A stretch of 60,283 nt of DNA from Desulforudis sp. (GTDB taxonomy: Bacteria; Bacillota; Desulfotomaculia; Desulfotomaculales; Desulforudaceae), in the NCBI GenBank assembly GCA_003604975.1, contig QZIR01000043.1, positions 1-60,283 of the forward strand. Reading direction: 5' to 3'. The position numbers and the translations under genes were made by a program. The notes below the pieces were generated by a model, which did not search any database, was not told the origin of the DNA, and saw only the letters and a program-made list of their open reading frames with translations. This document shows, in pieces, positions 32,534-38,760 of this stretch. The stretch's first letter is position 1. Every line of letters begins with the position of its first letter.

Positions 32534-32714
32534 TATTTCGCCTATTAGCTGCTCAGAAAGGGCTGGCCATCTAACGGCATATCCATGTCCGAAACGCCGT
32601 TGATTTGGATGTTTCTGGAATCCGCGCCGATTCTCTCTCTAAATACTGCAATTCTGTGCTGTTTTGCGCATACCCCATGTAAAATCATGTATTGGGAAGA
32701 AATATTTTGTGTGC

Positions 32715-32743
32715 TTGACATGCCTTGTGGCTCTTGTTATGCT
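32715..32743 (+). promoter_or_regulatory. Strong sigma-A promoter reading into tandem repeats
   Basis: -35 TTGACA (32715-32720), 17-nt spacer, -10 TATGCT (32738-32743). Predicted start about 32750, at the first base of the repeat array and about 130 nt before the secreted protein gene. Confidence 0.65.
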
Positions 32744-32747
32744 CTTT

Positions 32748-32836
32748 CCAACAAAAAGCAAATTCTTATCCATCAAATTCTTATCCATCCAACAAAAAGC
32801 AAATTCTTATCCATTATCCATCAAATTCTTATCCAT
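32748..32836 (+). repeat. Tandem AT-rich repeats with DnaA-box-like cores
   Basis: Two copies of a 41-nt unit (32748-32788 and 32789-32836, the second with a 7-nt internal duplication TATCCAT). Each unit has two copies of CAAATTCTTATCCAT, so four in all. The TTATCCAT core is one or two bases from the DnaA box TTATCCACA. The block is markedly AT-rich against GC-rich surroundings and lies in the leader of the downstream gene. Confidence 0.8.
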
Positions 32837-32878
32837 GGACAGGTTATCCCTGTATTTCCAGTCAGGAAGGTGATGTGC

Positions 32879-34312
32879 GTGGATCGACTGCCATTCCGGG
32901 CTGCCGCTGACGACCGGTTGGGTGCCCCTGCGAGAACGCGGTGGGCAACCTTAACCGTCTGGTTTGTTTTGTCATTGCTCCTCCTGTTCCCCTGCGCCGG
33001 GTCCGCCTCTGCCGCGCCCCGCGTCCTCCTCGACGGTAAACCCCGCTCCTTCGACGTGCCCCCGGTGATGGAGCAGGGCCGCGTCCTGGTGCCGATGCGG
33101 GCCATTTTCCAGGCCCTGGGCGCAGAGCTTGAGTGGGACGGCGCCACCGAGACTGTCACCGCCACCAGGGGGCGGACGACCGTTATCCTGACCATTGGGA
33201 GCAGGACCGTATTCAAGAACGGTAGCCCCGTCGTCCTCGACGTTCCGGCAAAAATCATAAACGGTCGGACCGTGGTTCCCCTGCGCTTCGTCTCCGAAGC
33301 CCTCGGTGCCGGGGTGGATTGGGATGCTGTTGCCCAGACCGTCACCATTTCCTCCGGCACACCCCCTGCCGAAGGATCACAGGGTGTTGCACCGAAACCC
33401 GAGACGAGCCTGATCAAAAGGGAGTTTGCCTGGGACTATGGGGGTAAGCGCTGGACATGGAAACTGCTAGTGCCGGAGGCGACCTACACCTATTACACCA
33501 ACCTGAAACGTCCGCCGACGGACGACTATTCGGTCTACGTTACCGATCCGGCTGACGATACTTTTATTTCAAGTCTAGCTGCTCGATTAAAGGAGACGGC
33601 CGTGCGGGAAAAATACTCGCCCAAGCAGACGGTAGAACTCGTTGTAACCTTTGTCCAGAACATCAAATATGCCCTAGACAACGTTTCCAAGGGCGTTGAA
33701 GAGTATCCGAGGTACCCCCTGGAAACCCTCGTTGACCAAGAGGGCGATTGCGAAGACCACAGCATCCTGCTCGCTTCCGTTCTTAAGGAAATGGACTACG
33801 GTGTAATATTGATTTATTTCCCCGGTGAGCATATGGCCGTGGGCGTTAAGGGCAAGGACCTGCCCGGTGCGTACTACGAGTACGAAGGTGCGCGGTACTA
33901 CTACGTGGAAACAACGGCTACCGGCTGGTCAATCGGCAAAATCCCGGATGAATATCTCCGGACCAAAGCCCGCATAGTCCCGCTGGTACCGCGGCCGGTA
34001 CTGACCCACAAAGGCGAATACAAATGGACATCAAAAGGCACTGCAGGCGGCTGGCTTGAACTGAAGGTCGAGGTGCGTAACGACGGGACGGCCACCGCCC
34101 GGGCTACCAAAGTTTATGCGGCCCTGGATGCGGGAGGCGGTCTTGTTTACGACCAGCAGTGGTCTGACTCACTCGACCTGGAGCCGCACTCTGCGGGTAC
34201 TTACACTTTGTTTCTGAAACTGCCGGCCAACGTGTATACGCGCCTGATTGTAAAGATCGTAAGCGATGGTCACCTGGCAGATGAAAGCACCTCTGATTGG
34301 TTCAATGCGTGA
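32879..34312 (+). CDS. Secreted Cu-amine-oxidase-N-like/transglutaminase-like protein
   Basis: 477 aa. Signal peptide (TVWFVLSLLLLFPCAGSASA). Residues about 45-165 form two repeats of the copper-amine-oxidase N-terminal-like domain (RVLVPMRAIFQALGAELEWD and RTVVPLRFVSEALGAGVDWD), a surface or cell-wall adhesion module in clostridia. Residues about 210-370 form a transglutaminase/cysteine-protease-like domain with Cys in DQEGDCEDHSILLASVL and His in PGEHMAVGV. The end is a beta-sandwich. GTG 32879 is chosen because AGGAAGG lies 8 nt upstream; the ATG 32873 is too close to it. Likely a cell-surface protein-modifying or scaffold protein. Confidence 0.8.
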   Translation: MDRLPFRAAADDRLGAPARTRWATLTVWFVLSLLLLFPCAGSASAAPRVLLDGKPRSFDVPPVMEQGRVLVPMRAIFQALGAELEWDGATETVTATRGRTTVILTIGSRTVFKNGSPVVLDVPAKIINGRTVVPLRFVSEALGAGVDWDAVAQTVTISSGTPPAEGSQGVAPKPETSLIKREFAWDYGGKRWTWKLLVPEATYTYYTNLKRPPTDDYSVYVTDPADDTFISSLAARLKETAVREKYSPKQTVELVVTFVQNIKYALDNVSKGVEEYPRYPLETLVDQEGDCEDHSILLASVLKEMDYGVILIYFPGEHMAVGVKGKDLPGAYYEYEGARYYYVETTATGWSIGKIPDEYLRTKARIVPLVPRPVLTHKGEYKWTSKGTAGGWLELKVEVRNDGTATARATKVYAALDAGGGLVYDQQWSDSLDLEPHSAGTYTLFLKLPANVYTRLIVKIVSDGHLADESTSDWFNA

Positions 34313-35357: not shown

Positions 35358-35927
35358 CTAGCGGGCGAAGACGTGCCGGTCAATCTGGGTTACGATGGTG
35401 CGGCTCCAGACCCACGGATTGACCTTCTTGTAAGGGTTCCAGAAGTACAGGGCGCCTTTACTCGGGTCTCGGCCGGCAACGGCCTGCTCAGCGGCCTGCA
35501 TTGATTCCGAGGTTACCGAACGCCAGATCATGCCGTTGGATACGGTACAGAAGGCCCTTGGCTGAAAGACAACACCCTTGACATTGTTGGGGAAGTCCTT
35601 GTGCTCAACCCTGTTCAAGATCACGGCGCCCACTGCGACTTTACCAGGGTAGGATTCCGTGGCCGCTTCGGCCTCGATAACCCTGGCCAGCAGGACAACA
35701 TCATCCCGGTCTACCTTTATCCCGCGCGATAAAGCCGACGCATTTTGATTCTTAGCAGGGTCTGCTTCCTCTTCACCCACCGTTTCCGCTTGGACCGAAT
35801 CCGGTCGTTCGTTGGCGGCCGCGTGAGCGGCGATCCCAACCGTAAGCGAAATTGCAAACAGGTACGCAATACAAACTGTGGCAAGACGTCTATAGGTTGA
35901 ATTTTGCCACAAAACACCAAAAGCCAT
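35358..35927 (-). CDS. SleB-type spore cortex-lytic/cell wall hydrolase
   Basis: 189 aa. Signal peptide (ATVCIAYLFAISLTVGIAAHA), low-complexity linker, then Hydrolase_2 domain: LARVIEAEAATESYPGKVAVGAVILNRV (catalytic Glu), FPNNVKGVVFQPRAFC, ALYFWNPYK. It degrades muramic-lactam cortex peptidoglycan during germination (SleB/CwlJ family). It lacks the N-terminal peptidoglycan-binding domain of classical SleB. ATG 35927 has GGGAG 8 nt upstream. Confidence 0.9.
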   Translation of the reverse strand: MAFGVLWQNSTYRRLATVCIAYLFAISLTVGIAAHAAANERPDSVQAETVGEEEADPAKNQNASALSRGIKVDRDDVVLLARVIEAEAATESYPGKVAVGAVILNRVEHKDFPNNVKGVVFQPRAFCTVSNGMIWRSVTSESMQAAEQAVAGRDPSKGALYFWNPYKKVNPWVWSRTIVTQIDRHVFAR

Positions 35928-35970
35928 CGTTTTCACTCCCTTTCGTTTGTTAGACGCGGCTCAGTTGAAG

Positions 35971-36079: not shown

Positions 36080-36346
36080 TCACCCTTGTAAACTTATTGT
36101 ATGCGCAACCTCGGGGTTATGATTCTTTTTATTGCGAATAAGGGCATCTTCTGCGTAGTCACTGGAGACCAGGTAGAGGTTAACCCATAGCTCGTGTTCA
36201 TTATTCTTACCCACGAGTTCACCGGCCAGATTCTTAAACTTGCGGTGTACCCTATCCTTAAATGAGGAGAAGTCGATGAGCATGTCCAGGACATCCTTCT
36301 GGCTGTAGGTTGCACCTTCACGCAAGGCCTTTGTCAAACCGCCCAC
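36080..36346 (-). CDS. Hypothetical small protein
   Basis: 88 aa, not recognised: TKALREGATYSQKDVLDMLIDFSSFKDRVHRKFKNLAGELVG then a C-terminal LWVNLYLVSSDYAEDALI. Soluble and mixed charge, with no membrane segment. Flanking terminators on both sides indicate a single-gene transcript. The start is GTG 36346 or TTG 36337. Confidence 0.55.
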   Translation of the reverse strand: MGGLTKALREGATYSQKDVLDMLIDFSSFKDRVHRKFKNLAGELVGKNNEHELWVNLYLVSSDYAEDALIRNKKNHNPEVAHTISLQG

Positions 36347-36397: not shown

Positions 36398-36426
36398 AAA
36401 AAACAATGGACCCGACCGGGTCCATT
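36398..36426 (-). terminator. Terminator after the repeat-protein gene
   Basis: 9-bp stem AATGGACCC/GGGTCCATT, 4-nt loop, followed on the minus strand by GTTTTTTG. Confidence 0.88.
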
Positions 36427-36458: not shown

Positions 36459-37151
36459 TCAAAAACTGGTGTATCCGGCAGTGCCGATGTTCTGACCGAT
36501 TAAGTTACCGGATGCCAGGTTTCGGTTGGCCATTCCGGTCATCTGGTTGGCGCCAAAGGCATTGCTGTAGTTACCCAGGCCGGTCTGCCAATTCGTGCCG
36601 AACTGGCCAGCGGAGATATTCTGGCCGGGATTGAGCCCGTAGTTACCGCCAAGGTTAGCGGAAGCACCGATATTCTGGCCGTAGGCAGTCCCGGCGTAAG
36701 GGCTGGCGAAGGCAGCGCCGTAAGCACCGTAGTTGCCCAGGGTACCGAACTGCGTCCCTCCGAACTGCTGAGCCGAGTACGGCTGCGCGGTCCACTGGCC
36801 GGTCCCGTAAGCGCCAGCTCCCTGGAAGCCGGCCGTACCGGCTCCGGCGCCAAACTGGCCGGCTCCAGCGCCAAACTGGCCGGCTCCAGCGCCATACTGA
36901 CCGGCTCCGGCGCCATACTGACCAGCTCCGGTTCCCCACTGCACGTTCTGTCCGACTGCAGAGATGTTCTGCGCAATGTTCGAGAGTTGGTTGATGCTGC
37001 TGCTCATGCTCTGAGCGATCTGGTTCAGCCTCTGGAGCTGCGCCGAGTTTTGCTGCTCAGCCTGTGAAAGCTGGTTGGCCATGTTGGTAATGTTGTTGAG
37101 ATCCTGGCGCATGCTGTTGAGCTGTTGCTGAATCTGGTTCATTTGAAACAT
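36459..37151 (-). CDS. Silk-like Gly/Ala/Gln-rich repeat protein with coiled-coil head
   Basis: 230 aa, family not recognised. Residues 1-70 form a Gln/Asn-rich coiled coil (QIQQQLNSMRQDLNNITNMANQLSQ...). Residues about 75-105 contain five GAGAGQ(Y/F) or close repeats, like silk crystalline segments. The rest is Gly/Asn/Gln/Tyr-rich with no charge to speak of. No signal peptide. Such sequences self-assemble; Firmicute spore-coat or exosporium proteins have comparable composition, and spore genes are nearby, but that role is inference. AAGGAGG precedes ATG 37151. It has its own terminator. Confidence 0.75.
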   Translation of the reverse strand: MFQMNQIQQQLNSMRQDLNNITNMANQLSQAEQQNSAQLQRLNQIAQSMSSSINQLSNIAQNISAVGQNVQWGTGAGQYGAGAGQYGAGAGQFGAGAGQFGAGAGTAGFQGAGAYGTGQWTAQPYSAQQFGGTQFGTLGNYGAYGAAFASPYAGTAYGQNIGASANLGGNYGLNPGQNISAGQFGTNWQTGLGNYSNAFGANQMTGMANRNLASGNLIGQNIGTAGYTSF

Positions 37152-37236
37152 GTTTTGAAGGCCTCCTTCTTGCCGTTTTTCTTATTATTCACTTTATTAC
37201 CAGCAATATTAGTGGAATATCCTGGTGCATGTGAAA

Positions 37237-38760
37237 TCATTTTTTGTAAACGTTGGCAAGATATACACCCCCCGTTGGTTGGATGATCAGACCGTGCAAC
37301 TCGGGCCGGTGGCCAGCGGAGTGGATGCTGTGGTTCAAGAAGACCCAGGGCGCGTCCTTGACGATAATCTCCTGGGCCTGCTCGTATAGCCGGGTACGGG
37401 TTTCCCGGTCGGGTACCTGGCGGGCCCGCGTCAGCAGGGCATCGACGTGAGCGTTTGAGTATCGGGCGCCGTTCATCCCCGTGGCAATCTGGGGGGTGGA
37501 AAGCAGATTATAAAGGAAGTCGTCGGGATCAGCGTTATCACTGATCCATCCGAATAGGAATGCGTCGCCGTCCTGGCGTCGGATGGCCTCCTTGCATTCC
37601 TCCCATTCGTAGGCCGTGATCTTCACCTTAAAGCCTACTTGTTCCAACTGGACGGCAATGGCGTCGGCCAGGGCGAGACCGCCTGCGGGGTTGTAAGGGC
37701 GGGTGCCGTTATAAGTAACCAGGGTGATCTCGGTTCCGTCGTAGGCTGCTTCACTGAGTAACCGCTTTGCTTCTTCAGGATTGTAGGCCATTTCGATCTT
37801 TGAGGTATGGCCCAGTACCCCGGGCGGTAGCGGAGTATGGGCGGGGACGACTTCCCCCGGGTACAGTTCCCGGATTATTGCGTTACGGTCGATCGCGAGG
37901 GCTGCTGCCTGGCGTAGGAGCGGATTGTCAAAGGGCTTGCGGTTGGTATAAAATGCAAGGTAACTCAGGTCCAGGCCGCCCAGTTCAACGGTTTGCAGCT
38001 GGCGGCTGCCGATGGTGTCAACCAGTCCCAGCCCTTCGGCGATATCTGCTTTCTTGTCCTGGAGCGCCTTGAGGCGGGCGTTTGCCTCCGTTATGGTTTT
38101 AAAGACAACCCGGTCCATGCGCGGTGCACCGGTTCGGTACTCTGGAAAGGGTTCCAGCAAGATCATTTCTTCAGTTACCTCGGTGATCCGGTAGGGACCG
38201 GCTCCCACCGGCCGGTCCGGTTCAGTGCTGGGTTTAACGATTGCGGCAGCGGGAGTGGCCAGGTTTTTAGCTAGAGGTGCATAGGGGTACCGCAGGTGCA
38301 GAACCAGGGTCAGGTCATCAGGAGTATCAATTTTGTCAACTGCCCCGTAGATGTAGCCGGCGTAAGGATAGAGTTTGCTTCCGGCGTTCAACTGCTGCTC
38401 GATGCACGACTTGACAGCGACGGCGTCGAGGCGTGTGCCGTCGTGAAACCTGAGGTTTTTGCGGAGGTGAAACGTCCAGCGTCGGCCGTCGCCCGAGACC
38501 TCGTATTTGTGGGCAACGGCGGGTTCCACCTCGCTGCTGCCCGGCCGGAAACGTAGCAGACCTTCGTAGACGTTGATCAGAACCGGAATCGGGGTTTCGT
38601 CGGCTATACGCCGGGGATCGAGCGTTGTCGGTTCAGCCTTGAGAATGTAGACTAAACTGTCAGGTGCTTCTACCGGCTGTTGGCTTTCTGGCTTGACCAG
38701 TACCGCCACAGCCAGTAGGAGTATCACCGCGGTCAGGATGGCATGAAAGCTCAGACGCAT
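37237..38760 (-). CDS. Orphan peptide/nickel-type ABC substrate-binding protein (SBP family 5)
   Basis: 507 aa. N-terminal helix (HAILTAVILLLAVAVLV) without a lipobox Cys. The family-5 signature region is VEPAVAHKYEVSGDGRRWTFHLRKNLRFHDGTRLDAVAVK, followed by GAGPYRI, ALAIDRN, and a C-terminal DAFLFGWISDNADPDDF. It would bind oligopeptides or similar ligands outside the membrane. No permease or ATPase genes lie next to it, so it must share a transporter encoded elsewhere or act as a sensor. It appears to be tethered by the uncleaved helix. Confidence 0.88.
   Translation of the reverse strand: MRLSFHAILTAVILLLAVAVLVKPESQQPVEAPDSLVYILKAEPTTLDPRRIADETPIPVLINVYEGLLRFRPGSSEVEPAVAHKYEVSGDGRRWTFHLRKNLRFHDGTRLDAVAVKSCIEQQLNAGSKLYPYAGYIYGAVDKIDTPDDLTLVLHLRYPYAPLAKNLATPAAAIVKPSTEPDRPVGAGPYRITEVTEEMILLEPFPEYRTGAPRMDRVVFKTITEANARLKALQDKKADIAEGLGLVDTIGSRQLQTVELGGLDLSYLAFYTNRKPFDNPLLRQAAALAIDRNAIIRELYPGEVVPAHTPLPPGVLGHTSKIEMAYNPEEAKRLLSEAAYDGTEITLVTYNGTRPYNPAGGLALADAIAVQLEQVGFKVKITAYEWEECKEAIRRQDGDAFLFGWISDNADPDDFLYNLLSTPQIATGMNGARYSNAHVDALLTRARQVPDRETRTRLYEQAQEIIVKDAPWVFLNHSIHSAGHRPELHGLIIQPTGGVYLANVYKK

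Follow-up and report, generated by a model that had tools for sequence, protein, structure and literature searches.

A broadly conserved, previously undescribed family of spore-associated proteins with a predicted coiled-coil head and a low-complexity tail

The window analysed here is the whole 60,283-nt stretch of a Desulforudis sp. contig. The feature under study is the sole gene of the interval 36459-37151; it runs on the minus strand from an ATG at 37151 to a stop codon at 36461-36459. An earlier sequence-only reading had marked an open reading frame here and left its strand unstated; it proved to be a real gene, coding for 230 amino acids. The gene and its surroundings contain the following features.

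37237..38760, minus strand: gene for an oligopeptide/dipeptide-type solute-binding protein (PF00496, E 7.6e-81)
37183..37215, minus strand: putative promoter of forespore sigma class, CCAC-TAATA (-35, 37211-37207), N17, AATAATA (-10, 37189-37183)
37162..37168, minus strand: ribosome-binding site AAGGAGG, 10 nt 5′ of the ATG
36459..37151, minus strand: coiled-coil/low-complexity protein gene, 230 aa, of a family found in 105/113 genomes of the order
36936..37151, minus strand: head, residues 1-72, predicted Gln/Asn-rich coiled coil (alignment, HMM matches, periodicity, helix 2-66)
36462..36935, minus strand: low-complexity tail, residues 73-230 (composition; disordered in the AlphaFold model)
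36837..36931, minus strand: species-specific tandem array coding for GAGAGQ(Y/F) units (TRF)
36405..36426, minus strand: intrinsic terminator, 9-bp stem, 4-nt loop, then GTTTTTTG
36387-36359: sigma-A-like promoter of c2's own, with an extended -10, as seen at the window locus
36080..36346, minus strand: c2, uncharacterised, about 80 aa, directly downstream
35358..35936, minus strand: gene for a SleB-like cell-wall hydrolase (PF07486, E 1.7e-32), 0.5 kb downstream

The expression signals read earlier from the sequence held up. The strong ribosome site has AAGGAGG-like counterparts upstream of the start in relatives, and the hairpin that follows the stop, with a T-run on its 3′ side, has a fold z-score of -3.2, as would befit a terminator of the gene's own. 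In comparison with the sister species L004 (a Desulforudis MAG contig, 50% identical to the window protein over the best segment), dN/dS was 0.20 for the whole gene, 0.08 for the head and 0.28 for the tail. The protein is therefore under purifying selection, with both head and tail constrained and the head more so.

Genomes were searched with the window protein and then with an HMM built from the head alignment. The family was found in 105 of the 113 genomes of the order, most of which have one full-length copy, and in 77 of the 80 that are of high quality (≥90% complete and ≤5% contaminated). Among 299 genomes sampled evenly over the phylum there were 72 carriers, about nine of them with weak matches (E > 1e-5). 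Nearly all members have a Gln-rich head, about 60–100 residues long, followed by a nearly charge-free low-complexity tail. Two loci (L064:6423-7265 and L071:6701-7609) show the reverse order, with a low-complexity tail of TLGVGD repeats first and the coiled coil at the C-terminus. Against Pfam and NCBIfam, the window protein produced nothing above any cut-off, just weak cross-matches to coiled coils, and a PDB sequence search returned mostly designed coiled coils with weak E-values. We found no phage relative of the window protein, and literature searches yielded no description of the family. The new element is thus a broadly conserved, undescribed, spore-associated family, and it belongs to a kind already known, the low-complexity spore proteins.

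The head is the conserved part of the family. Its hydrophobic periodicity is 3.45 residues in the window protein, with none of 2000 shuffled sequences equally strong, and 3.5 residues over the family. AlphaFold modelled the window protein as a single helix, residues 2–66, with a pLDDT of about 90 and a disordered tail. Head length changes by multiples of the heptad: according to the alignment, the head in the window genus falls 14 residues, or two heptads, short of the length usual in the order, and that in genus g10 of family f8 falls 20–21 residues short; split HMM matches in at least 12 genomes across the phylum point, from the hit coordinates, to 14 additional residues. These length changes and the 3.5-residue periodicity, together with the predicted helix, indicate from sequence that the conserved helical head is a coiled coil, as had been proposed.

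Gly makes up 27% of the window tail, Ala 18%, Gln 10%, Asn 9%, Tyr 7% and Phe 6%; the tail has no Cys and its charged residues amount to 0.6%, so the earlier description of it as charge-poor was apt. The tandem GAGAGQ(Y/F) units were likewise real, being encoded by a 21-bp repeat that TRF scored at 141, with 4.5 copies and a 91% match, values that speak against chance. However, among 122 family sequences GAGAG was confined to the window species, and no such array was found in L004. Across 97 proteins of the order the tails have a median length of 140 residues and a median charged content of 2.4%, and consist of 16% Gln, 15% Gly, 10% Ser, 9% Thr, 7% Tyr and 6% Phe; Cys is absent from all 13,559 of their residues. 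Composition is retained while the sequence drifts. As GAGAG is missing from L004 and from the rest of the family, the array is a recent local expansion of an already low-complexity tail. On the sequences compared, the silk-like run is a lineage-specific embellishment, and the family trait is the head with its low-complexity tail. Silk as a family trait was rejected on the same count of one species among 122 sequences, and the silk-like emphasis of the earlier reading did not survive this homologue survey.

These results bear on the proposal that the protein is a silk-like structural protein of the spore surface, in the coat, the exosporium or a filament. Its Gly/Ala/Gln/Tyr composition would suit such a role, and repeat-containing low-complexity proteins are common in the outer layers of spores. 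Like the GAGAGS of silk fibroin and (GAGAGAGQ)n, the window protein alternates Gly and Ala with Gln or aromatic residues between. Designed (GAGAGAGQ)n polypeptides form beta-roll fibrils, and by analogy with the (GAGAGAGQ)10 beta-roll a local beta-structure in the window repeat is plausible (PMC5388506). But the window unit is seven residues long and occurs in only 4–5 copies in one species, the remaining tail and the family are not GA-repetitive, and GA blocks are not conserved over homologues, L004 having no GAGAG.

Loci of the order share a fixed gene set, which comprises agmatinase, spermidine synthase and pyruvoyl-type arginine decarboxylase (named by eye), followed by a deoxyribonuclease-IV-like protein, the PF00496 solute-binding protein, the spore-family gene and c2. 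The solute-binding protein gene lies directly upstream in most of these loci, and c2 immediately downstream in 22 of 23, the 23rd running into a contig end. The c2 alignment has 20 invariant residues over 18 species, and the protein is modelled as a helical hairpin (pLDDT 74); none of the Pfam and NCBIfam families matched it. Since c2 has a sigma-A-like promoter of its own, its co-expression with the spore-family gene is not implied. The SleB-like hydrolase scored 165 bits against TIGR02869, below the cut-off of 236.5, and adjoins the gene at just four loci (the window, L004, L044 and L059); gene linkage is therefore weak evidence for a spore role. The claim that spore genes lie nearby is partly right: it stood for this hydrolase, 0.5 kb away, and candidate ORFs resembling ger genes are at least 11 kb from the gene. 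Further along the window, tandem 15–22-bp repeats at 32743-32836 open a 575-aa ORF (32585-34312) whose true start is probably farther downstream; by eye, copper-amine-oxidase-like and transglutaminase-like parts follow the repeats.

The hydrolase adjoins the gene in the window's family, and this, with a head that is the best conserved part (dN/dS 0.08), would accord with an adaptor or matrix that holds germination proteins in the spore, the head binding putative partners and the tail being dispensable. GerG of C. difficile offers a precedent (PMC5241399). We regard such an adaptor as improbable: the SleB-like linkage is not retained over the order, and GerG is sigma-E controlled and specific to C. 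difficile.

SpoIVA was present in 78 of the 80 high-quality genomes of the order, and 77 of these 78 carried the family gene. The other two, G052 and G059, belong to two families and lack SpoIVA, the family gene, SASP and dpaA. Both have reduced genomes, of 1.2 and 1.6 Mb, and they appear to represent independent losses of sporulation. Within the one order, the gene thus occurred in 77/78 spore formers versus 0/2 non-formers, the negatives being few (n=2). In the phylum sample, by hand tally, the family occurred in 68 of 249 SpoIVA-positive versus 4 of 50 SpoIVA-negative genomes, an association confounded by descent; the four SpoIVA-negative carriers include two incomplete MAGs and one weak match.

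Descent could also produce this correlation if the protein were a vegetative cytosolic coiled-coil protein and the resemblance of its promoter to sporulation promoters were fortuitous. Its metabolic neighbours (spermidine synthase, agmatinase, ArgDC and the solute-binding protein) and the sigma-A-like promoter on c2 would fit such a protein, but neither of the two non-sporulating genomes among the high-quality ones of the order has the gene, and its promoter, described below, is unlike sigma-A and strongly over-represented. We consider a vegetative role very improbable.

The pattern nATA-N17/18-MATAMTA was found in 54 of 98 upstream regions of the order versus 0.9% in Markov controls. The MATAMTA -10 by itself was found in 66 of the 98 versus 12% in controls, and was missing in 32. 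These patterns were framed after inspection of the upstream regions, and the sequences are related rather than independent. A typical family promoter reads TTCCACTAATA...CATAATA or ...AATAATA and lies about 58–81 nt before the start. The longer pattern CCASTWATA-N16/18-MATAMTA had a single match in the whole genome, the promoter of the window gene. CCASTWATA was rejected as a regulon-wide signal, as its matches elsewhere about equalled those of a reversed-pattern control.

As references for the compartments we used SASP (sigma-G), dpaA (sigma-K) and spoIIID (sigma-E) genes of the same genomes, and the mother-cell -10 was scored as CATATA / CATATNNTG; spoIVA upstream regions gave no usable promoter. 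Family genes had a MATAMTA-type -10 in 66/98 and a mother-cell -10 in 1/98, and SASP genes had them in 21/29 and 1/29, respectively. For dpaA, in contrast, the counts were 1/30 and 29/30, and for spoIIID 0/27 and 17/27. The -10 of the family genes is thus of the same class as that of SASP genes. In C. difficile, sigma-F and sigma-G promoters are alike, those of sigma-G having a conserved A downstream of the -10, and those of sigma-E and sigma-K have another -10 in common, for instance CATATAAT (PMC3789822). The comparison within the same genomes and the split in C. difficile together favour the forespore class, with sigma-G preferred. A G shortly before the -10, a feature of sigma-F promoters, occurs in many family genes, so sigma-F or both factors may be used. 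The alpha/beta SASP genes, whose proteins are unrelated, resemble the family genes in their -10 (CATAMTA), ATA-bearing -35 and spacing of 17–18 nt, but their -35 is CATA rather than TAATA/TTATA; with a SASP-trained PWM, only 38% of the family genes exceeded the 95th percentile of controls. Sigma-A was rejected for the family gene, as the -10 begins with C or A, and sigma-K and sigma-E are disfavoured by a -10 unlike those of dpaA and spoIIID. In several species (L059, L129 and L056 among them) the -35 region, corresponding to 37183-37217 of the window, has a TTCCA...TGGAA-like inverted repeat, possibly an operator.

Judged on these genomic patterns, the link of the family to spores appears strong. 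The co-distribution with SpoIVA and SASP and the sporulation-type promoter support well the spore role suggested earlier; the family gene is very probably a sporulation gene, and likely one expressed in the forespore. Known coat and exosporium genes are driven by the mother-cell factors sigma-E and sigma-K, and a mother-cell promoter was found for just 1 of the 98 family genes. This forespore-type -10, the lack of any signal peptide evident by eye in the window protein, and a repeat limited to one species count against placement at the spore surface, a part of the sequence-only reading that was not supported; a surface silk is quite improbable.

A forespore-class promoter would also be expected under the main rival reading, an amino-acid or nitrogen reserve of the spore interior that is degraded at germination and stands in for the gamma-type SASP, SspE. 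The tail is dominated by Gln, Asn, Gly, Ala and Ser and keeps its composition while its sequence drifts, and clostridia offer a vacancy, SspE being confined to bacilli and missing from every clostridial genome surveyed (PMC3533761). The family protein shares with SspE of Bacillales the forespore (sigma-G) class and a small, unstructured, Gln/Asn/Gly/Ala/Ser-rich character. However, the GPR-type site [TS]E[FIVLM]A occurs in 0/98 family members, SASP-gamma is absent among the best 25 of 40 Pfam matches (E up to 10), and a strictly conserved coiled coil would be superfluous in a reserve. SspE is not known to have a coiled-coil head, which sets the family protein apart from it. We regard a simple reserve as unlikely.

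The best reading as a whole, held at somewhat short of even confidence, is that of a forespore-made, self-associating protein of the spore interior, serving as scaffold, gel or reserve, rather than a spore-surface silk. The protein would be synthesized in the forespore from its sigma-G/sigma-F class promoter and, having no evident export signal, kept inside the spore. Its heads are predicted to form a coiled-coil bundle, clustering several charge-poor Gly/Gln/Asn/Tyr/Phe tails, whose mutual association may then build a scaffold or gel while the forespore loses water. In the window species, slippage at the 21-bp unit would have lengthened the tail with GAGAGQ(Y/F) and left the basic design unchanged. 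That the protein is such a scaffold or gel is a tentative suggestion drawn from its sequence. The fuller picture, of a near-universal forespore protein of Desulfotomaculum-like clostridia, with scattered relatives in the phylum, that nucleates a core gel or condensate through its coiled coil and plays a gamma-SASP-like structural or reserve role, is doubtful.

GerG (CD0311) is instructive here, as its repeats vary in number and gel in vitro but can be dispensed with in vivo (PMC5241399). A low-complexity tail does not necessarily assemble, and function should be inferred from the tail alone with caution. The family protein and GerG are both low-complexity spore proteins, and GerG is repeat-rich and gel-forming in vitro, but it has Asn/Met/Pro repeats GMPNNMSNNMNSNM, is a sigma-E mother-cell gene and occurs only in C. 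difficile (PMC5241399); the family has neither the Asn-rich GMPNNM repeats nor this restricted distribution.

Bacillus minor and gamma-type core proteins are mostly missing in clostridia, and little is known of what fills the spore interior in sulphate reducers of the deep subsurface. For this, a usually single-copy family that spans the order and has a promoter of forespore class offers a concrete candidate open to testing, and its interest would grow should gelation in the core, or a role like that of gamma-SASP, be demonstrated. Variation in tail length, in repeat content and, by whole heptads, in coil length provides a natural series for assembly work.

Short head-like proteins of 82–92 aa (L077, L078, L079, L080, L081 and L082) are encoded as the upstream neighbour of a glutamate-synthase-domain FMN protein. 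They match the head model weakly (E 1e-8 to 1e-10), but are more charged, lack a tail and lie in another gene neighbourhood. Some of their genes have GGGAATAATA upstream, resembling a sigma-F -10.
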